A model generated the notes under the pieces. It was not told where the DNA came from. It did not search any database and saw nothing but the letters and a program-made list of their open reading frames with translations. A stretch of 64,000 nt of DNA from Raphanus sativus. Lineage: Eukaryota > Streptophyta > Magnoliopsida > Brassicales > Brassicaceae. Shown piece by piece: positions 1-50,400 of this stretch. A program made the translations under genes and the position numbers. Every line of letters begins with the position of its first letter. Position 1 is the stretch's first letter. The stretch lies in assembly GCF_000801105.2 (NCBI RefSeq), contig NC_079517.1, positions 22,329,579 to 22,393,578 of the forward strand, read 5' to 3'.

Positions 1-620
1 GCTTTGTTCTGTCGCTCTTGATATAACCTCCTTTGAGTTGAGCGACACAAGCCGAATTATCTTCAAAAACTTTTGTTGGCTCTTTCTTATTAACTATTCC
101 GCTTGAATTTTGTATGTGGTGACTTATTGACCTTAACCACATACATTCTCGACATGCTTCGTGAAACGCAATAGTCTCTGCATGGTTTGAATAAGTTGCT
201 ACCAGAGTTTGTTTATGGGACCGCCAAGAGATCGCGGTTCCACCAATTGTAAAAACATAGCCGGTTTGCGATCGAGCCTTATGAGGATCTGATAAGTATC
301 CTGCATCTGCAGAACCAACCATACCAAAATCGGATTTTCTAAAATACATTAACCCTAAATCAATACGTACCTTGGAGAGAACATATTTGTTCTCGACGCC
401 GTTTTAATAGAAAACGAGCTATATCTTGCAAAGACATTAGTTTCTAAAAGTATATCTAATCAAATACCATTCGCAAGATATATAAGCTCACATATGCTTT
501 ATTACCATTAGCATCTCCAAAGTACTTATTTATATAAGATCTTACCAGGATCTTTTAAACAATATCTCTTTCAATACATGTTCATTCGTTTTGTTTCCAT
601 CAGTTTGTTCTCCAGGAACA
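1..620 (-). pseudogene. copia reverse transcriptase C-terminus and RNase H remnant
   Basis: The minus-strand translation gives the copia RNase H region: GSADAGYLSDPHKARSQTGY, then TAISWRS, KQTLVAT, a SNHAE motif, LHEACRECMWLRS and a FEDNSACVAQLKGG tail close to the window edge. The active-site D of the ADAGYLSD segment and the E of the NHAE segment are visible. Upstream, at about 400-620, pieces of the RT-RNase H linker (RFSS-like, LGLMYFRKSDFG) are recognisable but interrupted by stops and small indels. The copy continues past the left edge. It is part of the copia element whose gag lies near 5 kb and is not functional. Confidence 0.85.
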
Positions 621-2071
621 ACCACTCTTGTTGGAAAAAATTTCAAAGGGTATATATGATTTCATCACCCTTTTCGTATCTGTGAACGCATCTGGTAACT
701 GGTTTGCATAATTATGCAAATGCACAATTTTCTGAACTTCGAGTTCTCTTTAACTTGTAGGGGGATCAAGGTGTAACAAAAACTGTGTACACCATGTAAT
801 CTCTTTTAGGATATCCTCTAATTCCTCCTCCTAATGCTGGAATTCATTATTATTTAAAATGGCAATCGGCAAACCGTGCCGTTAACATATCACCAGCTAC
901 TGGTTCCAGGTATCTCATTTACTGCTTGTTCTAACTCTTTCAGAGTTTTATCGTTCCCGAGAATATCTTTAGTTCTCCAGGGAATACTAAATATCAAGAT
1001 GCAACTCAAGTCGTTTATATCCTGCCAGACATATCAATATACTGCATCTATATTAAAATTTCGGCAGTGACCTTGGAACAAGCTGTTTTTCATTCCTCAA
1101 GGTCATATTTCTTTTCATTCTCTGGACAAATATGCTTGGACTTCTAGTACAAAGCCTTCTCGTTTTTCTAACGAGCTTTATATCAAATTGATTGCCTTAT
1201 TCACTCTTTGGCTAATCAATTCACTCTTTGGCTAATCAATTCACTTTATCCTCATATATAGAGGTAGATTCAGGATCCTCATTTATAAAGCGCTTTTTCA
1301 TTTATTTACTTATTGTCGACAATCTATTTTCTCTTTGGTTCCATCTTTTTACATGTACTGATATGGTTAATCGAGATCTCTTTATCATCATCGATGATTT
1401 ACCCAGGTATCTGACTACACATTAATCCATATCAACGGTCTCTTTAAGAGATTCGTCCTCTATTCATATATTTGCTCCATTTCGAGGACTCTGTGGAACC
1501 AAAGTGGTCTATCACGTCTCTAGCGTGCCATAGACTCATATATCGTCCTTTTAAGACATATTTTCTTATTGGAGCCTTTTCAGCTGGAATATAAGATCAT
1601 TATTTTATCAAAATGTCTGGCATGCATTTTATAAATGGATTGTCCTATATAACGTTCATGATAATCCATTACTCATATCTTATTCCATCCGCTGTTTCAT
1701 ATGCTTCTAGCAACCTTGCGAGCATATTTCTAATTATTCCATATACTTTATCCTTTTTGGATTCTATATGACTCTATTACATGCACAACTGCATGTTTAA
1801 ACCAGATCATGGGAATCATCTTACTTGAATCTACTTTATCAAATTATTTTTCGAGTGAACATAATATTCTCATTGTTCCACTCAATAGGATTCTTTAACT
1901 CTCCCCCTCGAGATGATGACACTCTATGTCTAAAATCTCATACTGAATCCCACTCTAGAACCAGTAACATATTCATATTTCCTATTTGGGATGAATTATG
2001 TTTCAAATCCTTTTGAGTGAGATCCTGATTTGGGACTGTTTAAAGAAATCACATCTATTGATGATTCAACA
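621..2071 (-). other. degenerate copia pol interior
   Basis: This stretch lies between the recognisable RNase H and the hAT insertion and should hold integrase and RT of the copia element. I see no reading frame of useful length on either strand; the short open frames present are chance. It also has a local duplication of about 20 bp near 1207-1245 (the CACTCTTTGGCTAATCAATT motif twice). Confidence 0.5.
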
Positions 2072-2278
2072 CCCATGATTAGGGATGTTAAAATGGGTAA
2101 CTACCCATGGGTTTATCCAAGCCCACAAACTTTGGGTTGTATTTTTGCCTTTTAATTAACAACTGGGTTCAAATTGGGTTTTTACCTTTGAATAAATAAA
2201 TGAATTTACCCTATATGGGTAAACCCAATAAACTAAATGGGTACCCACAAGATTCACATTACGTCGTCTTCTCTTTCA

Positions 2279-2394
2279 ATCTCAGAAAGTTCGAGACGTC
2301 GATCTCAGAAAGTTCGAGACGTCGATCTCTCCGACCTCCCTCTTCGAGACGTCGATCTCTCCGATCTCTGATCTCTTCACTTCTCTCTCAGGTC

Positions 2395-2434
<40 letters not shown>
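2279..2434. repeat. 23-bp tandem repeat followed by (CT)n
   Basis: Two head-to-tail copies of a unit containing CAGAAAGTTCGAGACGTCGA are followed by partial copies. A pyrimidine run of CT dinucleotides follows from 2395 to 2434, with one interruption. The block lies in the presumed 5' untranslated region of the hAT derivative's gene. CT-rich leaders are common near plant transcription starts, so it may mark the promoter or leader; this is an inference. Confidence 0.7.
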
Positions 2435-2435
<1 letters not shown>

Positions 2436-3295
2436 GATCTCTCGATCTCAAATTCTGTTTTTTCTGCAGCAAACCCATCATCAGGTTTTGAGACGGATCT
2501 CTGCAGCAAACCCATCAAGGATATCTGATTGCAACTGTCTCCTTGTCCTCGCTTCACCATCTTTTGATTTCATGCTCCAGTCACCTTTCAGTTTCTATTC
2601 AGGTATAAAGTTGGGTCTGTTCTTGTTGCTTTTCCTGCTTTGAGCATCGTATAAATTGAACTTAGAATCAAATTTTGGACACTGACGCTGGATGCTTGTT
2701 TTTTTTTATCTGTGATGGGTTTTGTCAGTGAAGAATCGTATAAAGTTTTGGTTCTTGTGAACTTATGAACTCTTATGATCTCCTCAGAACTGTGATGGAT
2801 TAATTTTTAATCTTGCTTCTTACTTAGACATCAGTAGCATTTTTAGTCTTGTGCTTGTGTATTGGTTGGAGACAGATGTGCAGATTCATGTTGCTATTTA
2901 CTACTTGAGTAAGCTGAGCGTTCCATTTTACAGGTTTTGAAGAGACAGCAAAGATGAGTGAAAATCTTATGCACAAAGTAGTCCAGTAGCAGTCCAGTAG
3001 CCAGTAGTAGTAGGTGTCACGAGGAAAGCATCTGCTTTATATATTAGTCCAGTACCAGTAGCAGGCCGGTTAATATTATTAGGTAAGCATCTGCGAGTGT
3101 TTCGTAGTGCCTTTAGAGATCAAGTAGAGCTCTTATTATGAATGTCTAGTAACTGTAGTTCTTATTATGAGTTGTTGTCATATTATATTTTTTAAAAAAT
3201 TGTATTATGGTCTTACTTTATTTCAGTGTCTAAAAGTAAAAGTGATGGCAAATGATGTTTATCTCTGATTCTCTTCTTGCTTTTTGTATTTGTAG

Positions 3296-3922
3296 ATGGA
3301 TTCCCAGTTAGTGAGACTACTTGCAGAGCTTGAAAATGAGGAAATGGATGTGGACAGAGAGGAGAATGAAGCTGAACTTCCAGCAGCCCACAGTGAAACT
3401 CAAGTGACTCAACCAACAAAAACGGTATTTCAGTCTAACAAACGCTTAAAGTCTGATGTTTGGAAGGAATACATACCGATAGGTGTAGGGCTAGATGGAA
3501 AGAACAGAGGCCGTTGCATCTATTGTAGTAAGGAGTTAGTAATAGAAGTTAGGAATGGAACATCATCTTTGAAACGGCATTTAGAAATCTGTCCAGTGAA
3601 GCCTGAAAGTGATGGCAGTGCTGAAAGGAAGTATGATCAGAGAGTAGATCGCGAAATGACTAGTGAGCTTATTATCTATCACGATTTGCCTTTTCGGTAT
3701 GTGGAGTATGAGAAGGTTAGGGCAAGAGATAAATATTTGAACCCAAATGTTGTGCATATATGCCGACAAACCGCTGCTGCTGATGTCTTTAGGAAGTATG
3801 AGATGGAGAAAGCAAAGCTCACTTCGAGAGCCTTAGTGCTTTGGTGTTTATACATGTTTTCTTTGTGGTCAGAAGTCAGAACAATGCATTTTGTGGTCAG
3901 AACAATGTTTCGAGAGCTTTAG
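3296..3922 (+). pseudogene. hAT transposase N-terminal fragment with BED zinc finger
   Basis: The ATG follows an intron-like TTTGTAG acceptor, so a 5' untranslated intron is likely. The first ~35 residues are acidic. Residues ~45-100 form a BED-type zinc finger: a SDVWKEY start, C-x2-C in GRCIYCSKEL, then H-x4-C in LKRHLEIC. Residues ~110-170 match the N-terminal hAT segment (a LIIYHDLPFRYVEYEK-type motif and a CRQTAAADVF stretch). The frame then runs into a direct repeat and ends at about 208 residues, against some 650-700 for complete hAT transposases. The DDE core and C-terminal dimerisation domain are absent. If expressed it could bind DNA without cutting it, but that is speculation. Confidence 0.8.
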
Positions 3923-3994
3923 TGCTTTGGTGTTTAGACATGTTTTCTTTGTGGTCAGAGCAATGCATTTTCTTTGTGGTCAGAACATATAGCT
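3823..3994. repeat. 86-bp direct repeat pair in the hAT derivative
   Basis: A segment beginning TTCGAGAGCCTTAGTGCTTT (3823) recurs at 3909 with few changes. The shared GTTTTCTTTGTGGTCAGA motif recurs a third time around 3972. The duplication replaces the point where the transposase coding sequence stops, so it probably arose with, or after, the internal deletion. Confidence 0.7.
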
Positions 3995-4938
3995 TAACGT
4001 CTCTATTGCCAGCAACATATAGCTTAACGTCTGTGTAAATATATTCAAGTTGGTGCTTTGAACTTACATATGCTTTGGTATTTAGGTGATATTGAAGATA
4101 ATTTTGATGATGAACCTACAAATGTTGCAAGTTCTTCAGGAGTATGAGAGAGATTCAAGATTCAAGAAGCTGCAAATGTTGCAAGCTACAATTATTTTTA
4201 ACTGAATAAAAATACTTTTGCTACTTCTTTACATATATTGCAAGCTATAATTTGTTTCAGTTTGAATCAAATATGAATTTATTAAAATTGTGATTTTAAT
4301 ATTTATGCATAGGTATTTAAAATATCTTTTTATTAGTATATAAAATGTATAATTTGATTTTGTATGCAAAAAGATATGAATATTTTATATAAGTTCTTTA
4401 CAACAATTAAAATGGTTTGGGTACCCATGGGTGACCATATATCCTGTTGGGTTATTTTATGGGTTTTAATTTACCCATAATGTCTCTGGGTTTTTTTTGG
4501 GCTGGGCATAAACTGGGTCGGGTTTTTTGTGGGTTAGGCTGGGCTGGGTTATTTTGCCCATTTTAACATCCCTACCCATGATGGTGTCTTTATTTTCTTA
4601 AGACATGCTATATGTGAAAAACCTATAGGTTTTCAACATTTCACAATAATGTCGATAACATTATTGAGGATGGCTATATATCAGTAAACTTCAGGTTTAC
4701 TACTCATTTATAATTTTGACATCCTTCTCTTATGCATGTCTTTTTATCATAAGCTCTAATAGAACCACTAGTAATTTTATATTACTAGATACTATACTTA
4801 TTTGTTTGAGAGAGGATAGATATTTGTTACCTTTAATAGCAATGTATGATGATCTAATATCTGCCAAGTATATCTATCTCCATCCTGAATCTTAAAATAT
4901 TATTTAGAAAAATAATTTCATGTCACATCGATATTATT

Positions 4939-5659
4939 TCATTCATCGATACTTTCTGGCTCAACCAGAAAGTCTGATACATCGAGATGAGTATCATCAT
5001 TTAAACCATGAAAGGATGGCCCGGGTTCATCAGAGATGAAATTCGTTTCACCCCCACTTTTCTCTTTTCCCTTTTGGGATTCTTTATACAGATCGGCTAA
5101 GTGTTTTGGCGTACGACAAGTACGTACCCAATGACCTTTCATGCCACATCTGTAGCAAACCTTTTCTGTTTGCCTTTTGTCATCTAGGGACGACAAGTAC
5201 GTGGACGACAAGTACGTGGAAGTTCTTATTATTTTTCTCATCATAGGGACGAAATCTTCTTCCTCGTCCTCTCCCACGACCATGATAGCGGTTTCAACCG
5301 CATCTACACCCTCGTCCTTTTCTAGTAGGACCAACTTGATGGTTTAGTATCATGATTTCCAACTTTTCAGTTTTCATGGAGGATTTACATCAACTCCAAC
5401 TATTTAGTGAATCCTTTCTTTCAAGGATTTAATTACTCAAAGATCTTTTAGATCTTTTCTTATGATACACCTTATCTTATAATCCATCATCAAATTGGTG
5501 TAAGATATCATGGCTTTTCTTTTCTCATCTGATTAACTTATCGATGATTTCTCAAAGCTCATTTTCTCTCAGGTGCATCTTTGCACCCAGTGCCCAGATC
5601 ATATAATTATTTTTCGTAATATCTAGGGCATTAATTTTTAGCTTTGTCAAATTCGACAT
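4939..5659 (-). pseudogene. copia gag remnant with CCHC zinc knuckle
   Basis: The minus-strand ATG at 5659 opens MSNLTKLKINALDI, followed by a YMIWALGAKMHL motif, the usual start of plant copia Gag. A stop follows after about 37 residues, then frameshifts. An open stretch from 5334 to 4939 carries the zinc knuckle C-x2-C-x4-H-x4-C (CYRCGMKGHWVRTC) followed by RTPKHLADLYKES, typical of the Gag C-terminus leading into protease. A short duplicated STYLSS tract lies just before the knuckle. The gene is broken and the protease downstream is unreadable. Confidence 0.85.
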
Positions 5660-5790
5660 GATTACTATATTCATAAAATAATAATATAAATATAGAAGAT
5701 AATTTAAATGCAGAAATCAAAGGCATAAAATAAAGGCAAAAATTAAATTGCGTAACATTAAATTGCAGAAATTTAAATAACATAAATAAA

Positions 5791-6110
5791 ATTGGAGGCC
5801 TAGCCTACCAAATGATCTGCGGAGTCATGGACTATCATAGTGATCATTTTTTCAAAGTCAGAGGAGGCCTAGCTTGCCATGTTGACTTTATTTTCAAGAT
5901 CCAGGACGCCTAGCCTACTATTTTGATCTTTTCCTATTTCAAGGTCCAGGAGGTCAAGCCTACCATTTTTGACCCTTTTTTTATTCACAGAGGTAAAACC
6001 TACCACGTGTTTCTCTGATCGTGGAGGCCTAGCCTACCATAACGATCAGTCGGGAAAGGCAACGCCTATCATCCCGGAAAATAAACGGAGAAGGCCTAAC
6101 CTCTCACTCC
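5791..6110 (-). repeat. tandem covarying hairpins in copia 5' leader
   Basis: Nine diverged copies of an 18-bp core (plus-strand consensus GGAGGCCTAGCCTACCAT) start near 5794, 5821, 5863, 5904, 5949, 5989, 6023, 6054 and 6087. The core can fold as a 4-bp stem with a 3-nt loop, and several copies change both sides of the stem together: AGGC/GCCT, AGTC/GACT, AGGT/ACCT. Most units are enclosed by an outer stem of unrelated sequence that is still complementary, for example AAATGATC (5810-5817)/GATCATTT (5842-5849), AAAGTCA/TGACTTT, AAGATC/GATCTT and CTGATCG (6015-6021)/CGATCAG (6043-6049). The block lies between the primer site and the gag ATG, so it would be in the genomic RNA leader. Confidence 0.8.
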
Positions 6111-6195
6111 AGAATAATAAATAAAGATTTAAATAAATTAAATATATTGAAAACATAAATTTAAACATCACCTTGCTTGCTTGGTTTAAAACCGA

Positions 6196-6421
6196 TCGGT
6201 ATAAGAGAGCTCTTCATGCTGATAACGTGTTATAAAATATAGATAAAGATTAAGTGTTTATGTGTATATGTATAATATGATTATAAAGATAAATAATATA
6301 ATAAAAGAGGAAGAGGAGAGTGACGTGAGAGAGAGATGATGTAAGTGAATTTTTATTCTTGATTCTATTATTTATGTACAACATTTGACCACTATTTATA
6401 CAAAGAGATAAGTCGGTTAAG
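6196..6421 (-). repeat. start of copia 5' LTR and adjoining primer-site region
   Basis: On the minus strand the LTR ends in ...TTATAACA at plus position 6228, followed directly by an internal sequence beginning CGTTATCAGCATGAA, which occupies the place of the primer binding site. I could not match it to a particular tRNA. LTR sequence then runs up to about 6421, where an insertion interrupts it; the remainder may resume at 8541. The outer LTR end was not located. Confidence 0.55.
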
Positions 6422-8541
6422 TTGCACAAAAAAAAAAGATTTGGTTGAATATACCCATTTAAAACACAAATTAGGGGAATACCTTCAATGATTTTTAATG
6501 GGTTTTGGACTATCTTTTTAGCTGCTTTTTGACGATATTGCCCCTGCAGAAGAGAGAAGAAAGTGTACCTGTTTGCAGACTTAGGTCTGTATCTAGGGAG
6601 TGCTTCATCTGACAATCCTCTGGTTATTGGGAAGAACCGTACTACATCTGCCAAAAAAATAATATTTCCTCTTTTTTTTCTCTGAAACAAACAATATTTA
6701 CTCTCACTTTAAATAAAGAAACATCAAGATCATATAAGTTTCACAAAATTTGTATCAGTGAAAAATCATTTAGAAAATATCTTGCAATATGGATTAACAT
6801 TATTTCTGTTTTTATTATTAAATGGAGTGAGTGAAATTCAAGATTTAAGAGAACAATAAGAGACAAACGTGGACAATCGTGGAGGTTATAGAGTTTGAAC
6901 TGATTCAAATGTGTAAAAGAAGAAGAAATAGACAAAATATGGAAAAGAAAATCGGGATATACATCATTAACGATAAGATATCATATAACAGAAAACATGT
7001 TATATTACCTATCTAATATATATTAACAGTTAATAGCTGACAAATGTTTAAACACTCTCTAACTCTATAATTTAGCGGTACACATAATATTTTCTTAAAA
7101 TTAATTTGTTCGGAATAGGGTATGGACCCTAGTCTCGATTTTGAATTTTCAACTACCATCGATTACTCTTATTTCCTTTGCATTAACCAATCTAGGTTTT
7201 GAATTTTCAACTGCCATCAATTTTTATCAGCCCAGACCTCTGTTGATCTTCTTCTTTTATTTATCTCGTCCTCGTTATTATTTCTCGAATTTTTGAAACT
7301 TTTTATTTACTCATTATTTGATATTAAACTATGAATATGCTAACAAAACATGTATCAGATAACAATCCATGTATCAGTTAATAACCATTAAACAAACAAC
7401 ATATTAAATCACAAATTATGTATCAACCCATTTGGTAGCTAGCAAACTAAGTTTCAAATAATTTATAAGCTGATAAACCATTTATCAACTACACAAACCA
7501 TGTGCCAATCAACAACAAGATTTTTGTAACACCATACAAACCATTTATCAGTTGTTTGGTAACAAACTATGTATCAGTTAACAAAACATGTATCTGATAA
7601 TAAATCATTTATCAAGTAATAAATTATTAATTAGATAATAACGAATTTGTCAAATAATATACTAGATTATGTATCAGCTAACAAAGAATGTAACATTTCA
7701 CACATTATTTATCAGATATATAAGTCATCTATCTAAACAATGTATCAATTCGCAAATCATATATCACCCAATTTATCCGCTAATAAACCATGTATGCAAC
7801 AATGTATAAGCTGACAAACTATTTATTAAAAAAATTATCTGCTAATAAAAAAAATGTATCAGTTAATGATAAGTATTTGTTATTCAACATATATGTTATC
7901 TAGATAAAACGAAACTTCACGAAACCCTCATGAAACCACCATCTGGATCATTGTTCATGACTTCGCTCAATAAGGTGAATCACTAAACCAAATATGAAAA
8001 TTCTTTTGGGTTCGCCCTATTTTCTCTGCCATCAAAGTTTTTTTCTTTGCTATTCTCTTTTCACAACACCACGATTTTTTTTATGACACTATCATAGTTG
8101 TGATTGAAAATTGAAGGTGGATTGTAATTCAAAATTTTAAACAGTGTATAAGTATGAAAAATAAAAAATTTAGTGATTAATGGAGTATGTGAGGATTTAC
8201 AATAAATTAGAACATAGGAAAAAAAATAAAAGAAAAGTAGAACAAAAGAAGAGAGAGAGAGTTTGATTTAAAAAGGAAAAAAGAGAGAGAGGGACCTAAA
8301 ATACAGAGAGAGAGAGAGAAAAAAAAAGATATTAAAATTGATTCTATGTTGGGAGGAAAGCTAGATCTAAGAGAGTAGGATATAGGAAGAGAGAGAGAGT
8401 GAAAATAATCTGACACACTTGTAAGATATCTGGATTTATGGCAGAGGGGCAAAATGGGAATGAAATTTTGGATGAAAGAGATGAGGGTAGATTTCAAATT
8501 AGATGTCCATTTAGGTGCATAGACACCAATTTATGAAAAAA
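6422..8541. mobile_element. probable non-autonomous MULE (about 2.1 kb)
   Basis: The segment is flanked by an imperfect direct repeat GATAAGTCGGTTAAG (6407-6421) and GATAAGTCGGTCAAG (8542-8556), compatible with a 9-11-bp MULE target duplication. The two ends look like long degenerate inverted repeats: each starts with a TTGGT...TAT.CACC-type motif and reaches TTTTGCCCCT about 110 bp in. There is no credible coding frame inside. Boundaries and class are by eye. Confidence 0.5.
7320..7870. repeat. degenerate interspersed repeat, TGTATCAG/TAACAAAC motifs
   Basis: Inside the presumed MULE a short phrase close to ATGTATCAGTTAACAAAC recurs more than ten times with variable spacing of about 25-45 bp. 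Copies are strongly diverged and AT-rich. No coding frame overlaps it. Confidence 0.55.
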
Positions 8542-8766
8542 GATAAGTCGGTCAAGCTCAGATATTTATGAGAAGAAATACATATAATATTATGTCAAGT
8601 CGGTTTGTCAAAGACGGTAAGAGAATGGATCATCTTTCGTATTATCTCTTAACAAGATTAAAGTTCTTGTGATATATTTGTTCACCTTACTACTGTCTTA
8701 CAATGAGTTGATTACTGTCTTAGTTTCTCTATTATTAACTTGTATCTATTACATTTTATTTTTCAG

Positions 8767-10999
8767 ATGTCAGGTTGTGAAGACAATGATGCGCTACTTG
8801 GAGATGGAATTGAATCACAAGGAAAGAAAAGATCAGCCACTGCCAGATCGAGCAGTGATGACCTTCCTCCGTTACCAAAGAAAAAACAAGCTCATAGGGC
8901 ATTGGTGTGGCAACACTTCATTCAAAAAGAAGAGGACCTGAGCCTGTGCAATTGTCGCTACTATGGTCAGGATATCGGGTGCGACACCAAAAAGAGTGGG
9001 ACTAGTGCAATGATAAATCATATTGCGCGCTGTAAGTTGTTCAAAGCTTTTGAGGAAAGTGGTAGTCAGCCGCATTTAAGAACTAGTAGCACTGGTGTAG
9101 TTACTGCGGTTAAGTATGATGCTGGGTTGTTTAGGAGATCTGTGAATGAGATGGTTGTCTTGAATGAGCTGCCATTTTCTTTTATGGAGTCAGAGGGTTT
9201 TAGGAGGTTCTGTCACAATGTATTGCCCATGTATACAGTTCACTGCAGGAGGACAGCAACAGAATATATATTTGGCATGTTTATGAAGGAGAAAGTGAGT
9301 CTGAAGTAGTTGTTTTGCTCTGAGAAGAAGATAGTCTCTTTAACCACTGACATTTGGGCCGCTCCTACAACATCCTACAGCTACATGGTGGTCACAGCGC
9401 ACTGGATTGATAGAAAATGGGATATGCAGAAGAGATTCATCAGTTTTAAGCCTGTGACAGATCACAAAGGAGAGACCATTGCTGAGCATCTCAGTCAGTG
9501 TCTAGCGGATTGGGGCATTGAGAAGGTGTTCAGAGTGACAGTGGACAATGCTAAAGGGAATGACAAGGCACTGTGTCTATTTACTGAATCTTGTAGAGAG
9601 CTAGGGCCTAATGTGCTAATTAAGGATGGTGCCTTGTTACACATGCGTTGATGTGCGCATGTACTGAACTTGATTGTCAGGGACAGTTTAGCTGAGGTGA
9701 AAGAGAGTGTAATGGTGATTAGGAATTTGGTGAAGTATGTGAGATCATCTAGTCTGCGGCTTCAGTCCTTTCAGCTTCGAGTACTTACTAGAAAGGTTAG
9801 TAGAGGAAGCTTGTCTCTCGATTGTATTACACGCTGCAACTCTACATATCTGATGTTGTCGGCTGCATTGAAATTTTGAGTTGCATTTGAGAGGTTATTG
9901 GCATAAGAAATTTTGTACAATGAGTACTTCAAGGAGACAGAAGAGAATGGACAGAAAAGGGTTGGGCCTCCAAGTTCTCAGGGATGGGATGAAGTGCATA
10001 GGTTAGTCAAGTTTCTTAAGCTGTTTTTTGGAAGCACTTTGGCATTCTCAGCATCTAAGACAGTAACCTCCACTAGCTGCTACAATGAGATCGTGATCAT
10101 TGAGAGGAACTTGATAGCTTTGAGCAATAGCAGAGATGAACTTCTAAGGATTCAAGCAACAGAGATGAGGACCAAGTTTGAGAAGTATTGGGATGGGCTG
10201 CTCAACATGAATTCGCTTGTCAGTGTTGCCAGTGTCTTTGATCCTAGAAACAAGATGCAGTTTGCATCTATTTGTTTTGATAAGCTTTATGGAAAGGACA
10301 GTGTGGAAAGTGCTCATCTCAGAACCTGCATAAAGACACTGATGAAGCAGTTGTACGATGAGTATGTGGTGAAGATTGGTCCACCATCTCAAGGTGATAG
10401 TGGTGGAAACATGAGTGAGAATGGGGAAACAGTTGCATGCGTGTTTGAGATGTCTGATGACAAGGAGGAGTATGAAGGGAGGGATTCTTTGTATTCTGAG
10501 ATAGTTTCAGAAGCTGCGAATGAAGAGGCTAGTAGTGAGCTTGACATGTATTTGATGGAAAGGCCTGTGCCAAGAAGCTCTAACAATATGGGATTTGAAT
10601 GGAATGTTCTATCATGGTGGAAGCGCAGTTCTGTGAAGTTTCCTATATTATCAGAACTTGCCAAGGATGTGCTTGCAATTCAAGTCTCTTCTGTTGCTTC
10701 AGAGTCGGCTTTCAGTACAAGCGGTCGGATTTTGGATCCATTTCGAAGTTGCCTAACACCTTACATGATTGAAGAACTTGTGTATACACAACAGTGGATT
10801 CAGAATAGCATCAGTGCAGAAAAGTTTGCAAGCTTGACGCAAATGTTTGAAGAACTTGAATTCCATGACTCACTAGGTAATCGAACTTATCTCACTCTTC
10901 CATACATATTTCTCATGTTTTAATTGTGCATTTAACTGTCTTTCTCATAATATAGAGACTCTACCAATACCAGAGTTAGAAAACGATTTGAACAATTAG
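8767..10999 (+). pseudogene. hAT (Ac-like) transposase, nearly full length, interrupted by four stops
   Basis: The ATG at 8767 follows a polypyrimidine-CAG acceptor, so a leader intron is likely. One continuous frame runs to 10876, then an intron (GT at 10877, AG at 10955) and a short last exon ending with TAG at 10997-10999. In-frame stops lie at 9307, 9649, 9877 and 9904. The N-terminus has a BED-like zinc finger (VWQHF, C-x-C, H-x4-C). The middle has the catalytic-core motif LTTDIWAAPTT and an FRVTVDNAKGND motif. The C-terminus has the hAT dimerisation domain (WWKRSSVKFPILSELAKDVL, then VASESAFSTSGRILDP). With four stops in one undisturbed frame, inactivation appears to be by point mutation. 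Confidence 0.88.
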
Positions 11000-45501: not shown

Positions 45502-45554
45502 CCGTTACTTGAAGTTAGATCATGGCAGGAGGCCAAGTCTAACTTAGTAACTGG
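45502..45554 (+). repeat. structured hairpin copy 2 (element 2, 5' LTR)
   Basis: Outer stem GTTACT/AGTAAC (plus CC/GG with one bulged base), inner stem AGTTAGA/TCTAACT, apical TGGC/GCCA around AGGAG, preceded by GCAGGTTC. The 3' LTR copy is at 50283-50335. Confidence 0.8.
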
Positions 45555-47403: not shown

Positions 47404-50400
47404 TGTGATAACCCGCCCTTAGGGGTAAAATGGTCGAGATCGACAAAGTTGGAGTTTGGAGCCAAGCTTTTGGGAATCAAAGGATGAGGAGGAATGTTGA
47501 GTTTTGATCATTTCAAACTCAACATGGTTCAGAGAAAATAGAAGATTGGTCGAGCATCAACTTGGTGGTCGAATTGCGGGCGACAACGATGGATCGAGAA
47601 GTTTCAAAGTACGAGATGGTCGAAGAATTGATCGTGAGTGAAACATGAGTCAGATAAGCTGCTCTACCATTTTTAGAAGTGTCTTAGATTGATCAGACGG
47701 TCGTTTTGGAAGCATCACATTTTTGGAAGGTTGACGGTTTAGAAGCTCGACGTTTTTGAAGACCGACGTTTCTTCATCACGAAGTTTTCTCGGAAAATCT
47801 TCGTATATTATTCTGGAGACATTATAAGTCGGAAGCAGGACGGGAAGTAAGCAGGACGGGAAGCAAGCACGACGGGATCGAAGCACGACGGGAAAACCCA
47901 AAGTTGGCCGAAAACCCTAATTTCGGTATTGCGGAATTTCTAAGGGAAGCCGGAGGCTTGGGAAATATTTTTATTCAAGATCAGGATTCCTATGGAGATT
48001 ATTAAAAGTATTCAGAGCATCAGAACGGGAGCGGAAAAATATTCAAGATCGATCGCGGGTCGAAAATTTACCAGAAGAACCGAAACCGCACAAATGGACC
48101 GAGAAGCTCGAGGTGGCTTGATCTAAGTGATCAGGACGTGATGTCTATCCATTAACCAGCTGAGTGTCTACACAAGCTCGAGGTGTCGCCGTGCATGAAG
48201 CCAGAACATGCAGCTTGACACCCAGAAGCACGACATGTCGCCGTATCTGCAACCTGCGCATGCTGATCGACACCAAGAGGCTCGTGTGTCGCGATGCAAG
48301 CACTCCATCCATGATGAACGCCATCTGGACTGGGATGTGTCTCTCTGCATGTGACTGAGTCATGCAGCAATACATGTGGAGCACGAGGTGTCGCCGCGCA
48401 TGCAACCGGAAGCATGCGGGACGACACACAGGCGCTCGGGTGGTGCAATCTCACTGGTTGGTGTATCCTATATATACCCAACCCCCTCCTTCGTTTTCAT
48501 TCATTCTCCACACACCAAAAATCACTCCAAAACGTGCCTAGAGAGAGAGAGAGAGAGAGAGAAAGTAGAAAAAGAAAGCAAGAGGTTTCGAGTTGTTTTG
48601 AGAGTTCTAGAGCATTTTCGAGGTCCGAAACTCTGCCGAGAAGTTCTGAAGTATTATCCAGCAGCTAGAGAAGGTTCTGTCCAAATCAATTCGTCCAAGC
48701 AAGTCATATTCTCTGGTGATCAAGTGGAGGTGCTGTCCAAGGTCAGTTCAGATCCATGGGTTCAGTTCAGTCGAAGATTTGGAGCTCGATACTCTGCCGA
48801 AAGTCCGAAGAAATCGTCCAGGAGCTAGGGGAGGTTCTGCTCGAGTTGAGTTCTGTCCATACCAGTATCAGGGGAGGTTCTGTCCAAGTCAAGATCAGTC
48901 CAGTCCAGTCCATTCAAGATGTGAAGGTTGGGTTTTGGCTAAGTCCTCTCCGATCAACCAGCTGCTTATCGGCAAAGAACACTGTGAGTTGGCTTGTTTG
49001 AATTCCACTTGGAATTTAGGATAGTTTTGTGAGTTGGCTTGTTTGAATTCCACTTGGAATTTAGGATAGTTCTGTGAGTTGGCTTGTTTGAATTCCACTT
49101 GGAATTTAGGATAGTTTTGTGAGTTGGCTTGTTTGAATTCCACTTGGAATTTAGGATAGTTCTGTGAGTTGGCTTGTTTGAATTCCACTTGGAATTTAGG
49201 ATAGTTCTGTGAGTTGGCTTGTTTGAATTCCACTTGGAATTTAGGATAGTTCTGTGAGTTGGTTTTGTTTGAGTTCCACTTGGAACTTAGGTTAGATCGA
49301 GTATGCATATAGATTATAGATTAGAATGATCACACTATTGCATGGTAGAGTCCTTAGGGTTATTTTAGTATTGAATTGGACTCAGCTTGGCACGGGCTAA
49401 GCTGAGATGAACGGAATTAAGACTGAGTTAATAACCTGACTAGGACTAGGGCTAGGGTGCATCATGTTTTCTATTCTTGCTTGGTTATCTGGTTGAGTGC
49501 AGGTTCCCGTTATCTTTAAAGATAGTTTCATAGCAGGAGGCTTAACTATCTGGGTAACGGTTTGATTGAGTAGTTGCTTGATAGATTAGATGCTTGCTTG
49601 TTTATTTATGCTTGTTGAGGTTAGTCAGCTCTTGGTAAGGGAGTGACTAACCGGTTGATTTGATTAACATTGATATTGTTAATTAGTTTATTATATGTTA
49701 CTACTCGGGGTCCTAAGCCATATAGGCTGGACTCCTGGTACTTTTGGTATGATGTTGAGTTGTGTTGATAGCTTGCCTGATCAGCAATGCTACGCGGCAA
49801 GGAAAGTTACGTAAGCATGTCCCCACGCGGCTTGGCAGAGAGGTTGCATAAAGCATGCTCTGTACGGGGAGGTTGCTAGAAAGCATGCTCCGTCATGTGG
49901 TATCCTTTGTGGGTATTACATGTTAGTTTGCGGCAAGGAAGGTTGCTAGAGTATGTCCCTACGCGGCTGGGCAGAGAGGTTGCATAAAGCATGCTCTGTA
50001 CGGAGAGGTTGCTAGAAAGCATGCTTCGTCGTGTGACACCTTATCGGGGTTACATGTCAGTTTCATTGGATGTTCTAGCTCGCGTGCCTTTGTGGCTGTG
50101 AGTTAGGTGTTCTGTGGTTGAGAAAGTGAGGAGTAAGGTTGTGATATTAAGTATAGCCATAATGAGGCATATATTTATTATTATGCTAATGGTGGATTAT
50201 ATTCCGCTGCTTATCTTATTTATGTTAGTCTCGAGTGATGATTATTATTGTGATTGTGGTTGATTGATTTACTTGCAGGTTCCCGTTACTTGAAGTTAGA
50301 TCATGGCAGGAGGCCAAGTCTAACTTAGTAACTGGTTTATTAGATAGTAGTTGTGATTGTTGATTGGATATTGTTTAGTGTAGGCCTGATGTTGGCATGT

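Follow-up and report, generated by a model that had tools for sequence, protein, structure and literature searches.

A covarying array of hairpins in the leader of a Ty1/copia retrotransposon family of Raphanus sativus: a candidate packaging or dimerisation signal

Introduction

What would keep nine similar hairpins in a row between the primer site and the gag gene of a retrotransposon? The question is raised by a stretch of 64,000 nucleotides from Raphanus sativus (the window; C7:22329579-22393578 of the searched assembly), in which a tandem hairpin array, located by an 18-nt core scan and a pair table, occupies 5794..6111 of the minus strand and runs in RNA order from H9 (6111) to H1 (5794). 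A first-pass annotation of the window had listed packaging, dimerisation, translation control and escape from silencing as its possible functions. Packing signals matter, since LTR retrotransposons fill plant genomes, and an excerpt of one account states that little is known about which RNA is packed in LTR retrotransposons other than BARE (PMC3735527).

Materials and methods

One genome of 433 Mb was searched with two array queries, which gave at least 63 and at least 61 matches; 40 of 78 and 40 of 79 candidates were scored, and copy numbers are therefore lower bounds. Every copy was recovered by an array query, so that relatives without the array would be missed. The searches returned 60 loci. 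Seventeen from the second query lay at the same places as first-query loci and were not used, and the other 43 were oriented. Omission of L103 (same place as L062) left 42 leaders, and omission of L065 and L082 (broken arrays) left 40. The window copy is L054. The pairs L083/L112 and L107/L108 may each be assembly duplicates of one locus.

Statistics were calculated on 27 representatives at 97% identity, with 338 columns and 98 model pairs. Covariation was tested with our own scripts in the style of R-scape (not R-scape itself) against a tree-based null, for which a single tree is an approximation, since leaders seem to have been exchanged between classes. The class-split test used 10 gag-deleted and 13 other representatives, with L070, L078, L098 and L110 in neither group. 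L083, whose contig ends early, was placed in the gag-deleted class by two shared stops.

Results

On the minus strand of the window, the end of an LTR (...AACA) is followed by a primer site, the leader, a gag ATG and a CCHC knuckle. The primer binding site (PBS) at 6214..6227 directly follows the 5' LTR end and the gag start codon lies at 5657..5659, both on the minus strand, so the array does stand where it had been annotated, as a structured leader of a copia element. The gag frame is closed after 35 codons, likewise in seven other copies. A gag remnant with the CCHC knuckle (4939..5343, minus strand) scores just below the Pfam cut-offs, and a Brassica napus protein is 94% identical to this piece across 59% of the length. 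The related element L117 aligns to the window in three pieces (6239-4573, 2079-580 and 456-1), which indicates that the copia element continues past a nested insertion at 2080-4572 and is resumed at 580..2079 on the minus strand. The window copy is a decayed, gag-defective element. The insertion that splits it is 2.5 kb long and contains an ORF (3296-3922) that looked BED-finger-like by eye; in L117, the two flanking copia pieces share 10 nt, which is what a target duplication would produce. Fragmented ORFs resembling a hAT-type transposase were seen by eye at 8707-10923 of the window.

Both the PBS and the gag start were located in 37 of the 43 oriented copies (L103, the same locus as L062, among them), with 509 to 598 nt between the two. 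Ty1/copia domains were sought in pieces of the relative L114 rather than in the decayed window copy, and these pieces gave Retrotran_gag_2 (1.4e-7), Pol_BBD (1.2e-9), gag_pre-integrs (2.1e-12) and RVT_2 (7.5e-54). LTR pairs that were 96 to 100% alike adjoined the PBS in seven of ten fetched stretches, and the same seven had matching 5-nt flanks by eye. By these domains and LTR pairs, the host element is a Ty1/copia LTR retrotransposon, and its family is probably of the Bianca type. In L114 and L116, gag and pol are stop-to-stop ORFs that occupy different frames and are separated by about 68 nt. This arrangement fits the Bianca two-ORF layout and requires pol to have an expression route of its own. 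Read as its reverse complement, the PBS resembles an anticodon arm carrying (G or I)AU, and the PBS of the array family may fit half of plant tRNA-Ile; a tRNA scan found no tRNA-Ile. For the Bianca lineage, an excerpt of PMC6317226 gives separate ORFs for gag and pol, divided by a spacer averaging 172 bp, and a PBS complementary to half of tRNA-Ile, features that appear to fit the array family in part.

In the RNA sense, a typical unit of the array has an outer stem and two middle pairs, then a bulged base (U in 71%), and four inner pairs that close a 3-nt loop. H8 and H9 were modelled without middle pairs and H1 without an outer stem. Over 232 unit copies, four inner bases are near-fixed (A 90%, G 93%, C 92%, U 90%). 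The third pair of the inner stem varies, as does the second of the middle pairs. All hairpins are on the minus strand. H9 (6086..6111) and H8 (6051..6076) are followed by H7 (6015..6049), whose outer pair 6044/6020 is C-G in 22, U-G in two and U-A in one of the 27 representatives, and the ancestor of L095 and L096 is inferred to have gone from C-G to U-A; at its middle pair 6037/6024, A-U, G-U and G-C were all observed. The loop-closing pair 5998/5994 of H6 (5986..6009) occurs as U-A, C-G and U-G. The states G-C, A-U and G-U were found both at pair 5959/5953 of H5 (5941..5977) and at pair 5914/5908 of H4 (5896..5930), a hairpin with letters in 16 of the 27 representatives. Pairs 5873/5867 and 5875/5865 of H3 (5854..5889) are individually significant in the structure-restricted test described below, as is pair 5806/5796 of H1 (5794..5809), which is A-U or G-C. 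Pair 5831/5825 of H2 (5810..5849) is U-A or A-U.

In the window copy, agreement with the 18-nt core ranged from 12 to all 18 positions in nine units (core matches at 5794, 5821, 5863, 5904, 5949, 5989, 6023, 6055 and 6090). When the whole window was scanned with up to three mismatches allowed, five matches were obtained, all with at most two mismatches, and none was obtained in 100 window shuffles. The claim of nine units with a shared core was borne out. The annotation had also described inner 4-bp stems kept by paired changes. The stems that it quoted are present, but it omitted the imperfect ones: only five of the nine inner stems (units 1, 2, 6, 7 and 8) are fully Watson-Crick by eye, and in plus-strand letters unit 3 has a G-T pair, unit 5 a T-G pair, unit 4 a C-C mismatch and unit 9 a C-A mismatch. 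The quoted outer stems, complementary and of differing sequence, are likewise present in the window copy. An 18-mer at 45528 of the window and another at 50309 are identical to each other and agree with the core at 14 of 18 positions; they may belong to a duplicated region and match by chance.

Within the window copy alone, cognate outer arms paired better than re-dealt arms, the observed score being reached by 2764 of 100000 permutations, or by 4109 of 100000 when G-U was allowed. The fold of the whole array gave z values of -1.9 for the minus strand and -1.6 for the plus strand. The evidence for covariation from this copy alone is modest. A loose unit scan of the 42 leaders found 5 to 10 units (mean 8.6, some counts including matches outside the array) compared with 2.4 in shuffles; by eye, the array proper holds about 7 to 9 units per copy.

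The other copies gave much of what the window copy could not. Among the 27 representatives, the 98 predicted pairs were formed in 90.7% of cells, a percentage favoured by a structure model drawn on the window copy, compared with 78.6% (sd 1.9) under the null, and the summed G was 336 compared with 177 (sd 32); none of 1000 replicates reached either value. When the partners were slid by 1 to 3 columns, 38 to 49% of cells were paired and the summed G fell to between 97 and 176. Double changes on the same branch from one Watson-Crick pair to another numbered 23, while the null gave 3.8 with a maximum of 10 in 500 replicates. The true pairs underwent 26 double changes in all, 23 of which kept Watson-Crick pairing; pairs slid by 1 to 3 columns, less often Watson-Crick at the start, underwent 8 to 14, of which 0 to 2 kept it. 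Recombination of leaders was also considered as the sole cause of linked column changes, but the 0 to 2 Watson-Crick double changes of the slid pairs do not bear this out. Two Watson-Crick types were seen at 23 pairs, a count that is not unusual by itself and was reached by 174 of 1000 null replicates. Compensation between copies was found in the inner as well as the outer stems, so the two-layer compensatory change that had been proposed holds.

When all column pairs were ranked, the top two were the model pairs 5806/5796 and 5873/5867, whose E values were 0.047 and 0.02 for the first and 0.11 and 0.04 for the second (R-scape-like and per-column null, respectively). The third-ranked, 5875/5865, is also a model pair; it was tied with two other column pairs and was not significant (E 13 and 3.6). 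In the structure-restricted test, these three of the 98 pairs had E values of 0.05 or less under both nulls. RNAalifold gave the 27 representatives an energy of -128.4 compared with -71.3 (sd 4.6) in 60 column shuffles, a z of -12.4. RNAalifold and an R-scape-type analysis of related copies were the checks that the annotation had proposed, and within this one genome both supported it. Taken together, the sequences of the other copies provide strong evidence that the array is real and confirm that its structure is kept by matched changes.

If sense RNA were the selected molecule, G-U intermediates would be expected to exceed A-C intermediates. On internal branches there were 13 of each, distributed by layer as 9 G-U and 2 A-C in the inner and middle stems, 2 and 9 in the outer stems, and 2 and 2 at closing pairs; at the tips the numbers were 79 and 68. 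The RNAalifold z was -12.4 on either strand. The sense consensus contained 58 of the 98 model pairs and missed H9, H6 and H4, while the antisense consensus contained 74 and missed H4. With equal numbers of intermediates and equal z values, the data do not single out the sense strand.

The copies fall into two main groups by the state of gag. An open gag of 331 codons was found in 13 of the 43 oriented copies. A second class, without part of gag, comprises 14 copies recognised by alignment, to which L083 was added on account of its stops. A set of four stops, after codons 35, 44, 60 and 76, is common to five of the 15 copies examined, L054 (the window copy), L061, L069, L079 and L112, which lie at different loci; of the remaining copies some have part of the four-stop set, while others carry different stops. 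The interiors of L117 (the L079 element) and L120 (the L097 element) are 80% alike over 2 kb. L117 also resembles the gag-competent L114, by 90% in the leader and gag start, 96% in the last 2.4 kb and 96.8% in the leader alone. With an interior like that of L120 and ends like those of L114, L117 suggests that the gag-defective class is coherent and that its ends seem to have been exchanged with those of gag-competent elements. The LTRs of L117 are 96.2% alike and have matching 5-nt flanks, which indicates that it moved as an element. One further element, L122 (leader L078), has lost about 1.1 kb of the gag region right after the leader; its LTRs are 99.3% alike and its array is kept. An origin of this deletion as a splice product was dropped because no GT was seen by eye at the break.

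The gag-defective class was then analysed alone. Its 10 representatives showed 18 double changes compared with 1.7 in the null (maximum 7 in 500), some of which may have arisen in gag-competent donors, since ends are exchangeable. Slid pairs gave 0 to 2 double changes. Pairs were formed in 89.2% of cells compared with 80.8% in the null. The letters of the stems were no more conserved than dead gag among 45 class pairs (0.804 compared with 0.859), nor among the 19 diverged ones (0.798 compared with 0.802). In the arrays of this class it is the shape that is kept, not the letters.

The LTRs of the family were more diverse than its leaders. Seven elements (L114-L118, L122 and L123) have leaders that are 96-98% alike and a last 1.5 kb that is also 96-98% alike. 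Their LTRs measure 234 to 421 nt and are only 66-82% alike with many gaps in 20 of 21 pairs, and 98% alike in one. The LTR of the window copy gave no match to that of L115. Over the 40 copies, which form 20 LTR groups, an LTR match of 80 nt was found in 27 of 780 pairs and a match of that length in the array in 778 of 780 (L065 and L096 having no recognised PBS). Interiors and LTRs seem to be decoupled, as by recombination.

Discussion

Our main reading, to which we give a probability of about one half, is that the array acts in cis on the genomic RNA of this Ty1/copia family as an element for packaging or dimerisation. The structure itself is a row of about seven to nine bulged hairpins joined by A-rich linkers, each with near-fixed core pairs around a variable third one and most with an outer stem whose sequence is free but whose arms remain complementary. 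The hairpins would probably serve as repeated binding sites for Gag, as sites of RNA-RNA pairing, or as both, and through such contacts the genomic RNA would dimerise and enter particles. Relatives with a defective gag would carry this tag too and be packed in trans by the Gag of their partners. Structure that is kept in copies unable to make Gag argues for a cis-acting RNA signal recognised by proteins that other copies provide in trans, in packaging, dimerisation or reverse transcription. Two features looked for in a packaging or dimerisation signal were found, namely a conserved structure in the leader of the genomic RNA and its retention in elements that would be packed in trans, the latter qualified by the exchange of leaders between classes.

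The first of the alternatives, an unlikely one, is control of translation, in which the hairpins and upstream AUGs would steer ribosomes to gag by shunting or reinitiation. Upstream ATGs number 12 to 20 in each of the 27 leaders (the highest count belongs to L098 and L110, whose 3' ends are uncertain), and several of these stand at the foot of a unit by eye. The shunt plan of caulimoviruses, in an excerpt of PMC5902531, combines a structured leader, preceded by a short uORF, with a landing site rich in UA. However, the first uORF of the 27 leaders varies from 2 to 44 codons, which departs from a caulimovirus-type shunt with its short 5'-proximal uORF that terminates just ahead of the stem, and the model is one of many small hairpins rather than a single long stem. 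The array is, moreover, kept with compensation where gag is defective, and for this reason a role in packaging or dimerisation is preferred to one in the control of gag translation. Of the functions that had been listed for the array, the first two thus gain as candidates and translation control loses.

A facultative leader intron is a little less probable still. Splicing would take the array out of the gag mRNA, leaving the unspliced RNA as the genome, and would at the same time remove the upstream ATGs and so solve how gag is reached. An AG|GTRA site at leader nt 54-71 was present in all 22 copies without the shared gag deletion, and a YAG just before the gag ATG in 20 of them. The gag-deleted class had fewer such sites (AG|GTRA in 8 of 15, YAG in 8 of 15), and the five other copies had 3 and 0. 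The 22 copies are close relatives, however, which weakens the contrast. The intron can also be joined to the packaging element. As a rather speculative extension, which we hold to be unlikely, the array would be a shared "boarding pass" within a facultative leader intron, carried by unspliced RNA only, with which gag-competent, gag-defective and LTR-diverse relatives would co-dimerise in one particle. If true, this would explain interiors that are about 97% alike between LTRs that align poorly.

Mutation without selection must also be weighed, since template switching or turnover of units during reverse transcription might keep palindromes near perfect. The differing number of units between arrays, the mosaic look of the elements and the likeness of both strands in the intermediate test and in RNAalifold would all agree with it. 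On the other hand, no branch has more than one of the 23 double changes within a given stem layer, several of the covarying pairs show G-U intermediates, and the near-fixed bases of the core are retained; we regard this explanation as quite improbable. The hairpins might instead guard the RNA against silencing or decay, or act in single-stranded DNA. Either would fit the symmetry of the strands but is very improbable, with no positive support and hairpins of 24 to 40 nt, which seem short for Dicer substrates.

A role in packaging or dimerisation is therefore the reading that we carry forward, and the array offers a concrete, testable candidate for a signal that marks genomic RNA, with a natural set of variants for mapping. 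A search of Rfam with 5600-6700 of the window matched no family; its one hit (E 0.5) was far below the gathering score and outside the array. In viral contigs, the core 14-mer was found in 53 stretches with a single match each, which was read as chance, and the LTR/PBS junction and protein P0001 gave no match, nor was any match obtained in the plasmid collection. In the literature covered here, no description of the array was found. The published Brassica-trans motif, known to us by its text description alone, is in an excerpt of PMC12218528 confined to Brassicaceae (9 species), with many copies per genome, no consistent context and an R-scape E of 0.0036. It resembles the array in that description (Brassicaceae, many copies) and may or may not be the same hairpin, so that the earlier statement that no named feature matches holds for Rfam families but is qualified by this motif.

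Several known systems resemble the array in part. The leader of caulimoviruses, in the excerpt cited above (PMC5902531), is also structured, contains upstream ORFs, belongs to a plant reverse-transcribing element and serves packaging too; it differs in forming one large stem-loop, and its shunt layout is not constant in the array family. The 5' domain of Ty1 genomic RNA likewise places cis packaging signals at the 5' end of the RNA of an LTR retrotransposon (excerpts of PMC5454406 and PMC4974528), but in the former account dimerisation is by kissing loops in one domain, not by a repeat array. In barley, BARE2 is without Gag and yet is packed by BARE1, and the excerpt of PMC3735527 mentions conserved dimerisation and packaging signals. 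There, too, elements without gag have survived alongside competent ones; the same excerpt describes no hairpin array, and BARE-1 belongs to the Angela lineage (excerpt of PMC6317226).

A further parallel is that of MoMuLV, in which the packaging hairpins lie near gag and Gag has a zinc knuckle. Packaging there uses a tandem hairpin, SL-C/SL-D, and shares with our reading hairpins that are important for the packaging of genomic RNA (excerpt of PMC7599994). The array described here differs in having about 7 to 9 similar bulged units and in belonging to a Copia element of a plant.
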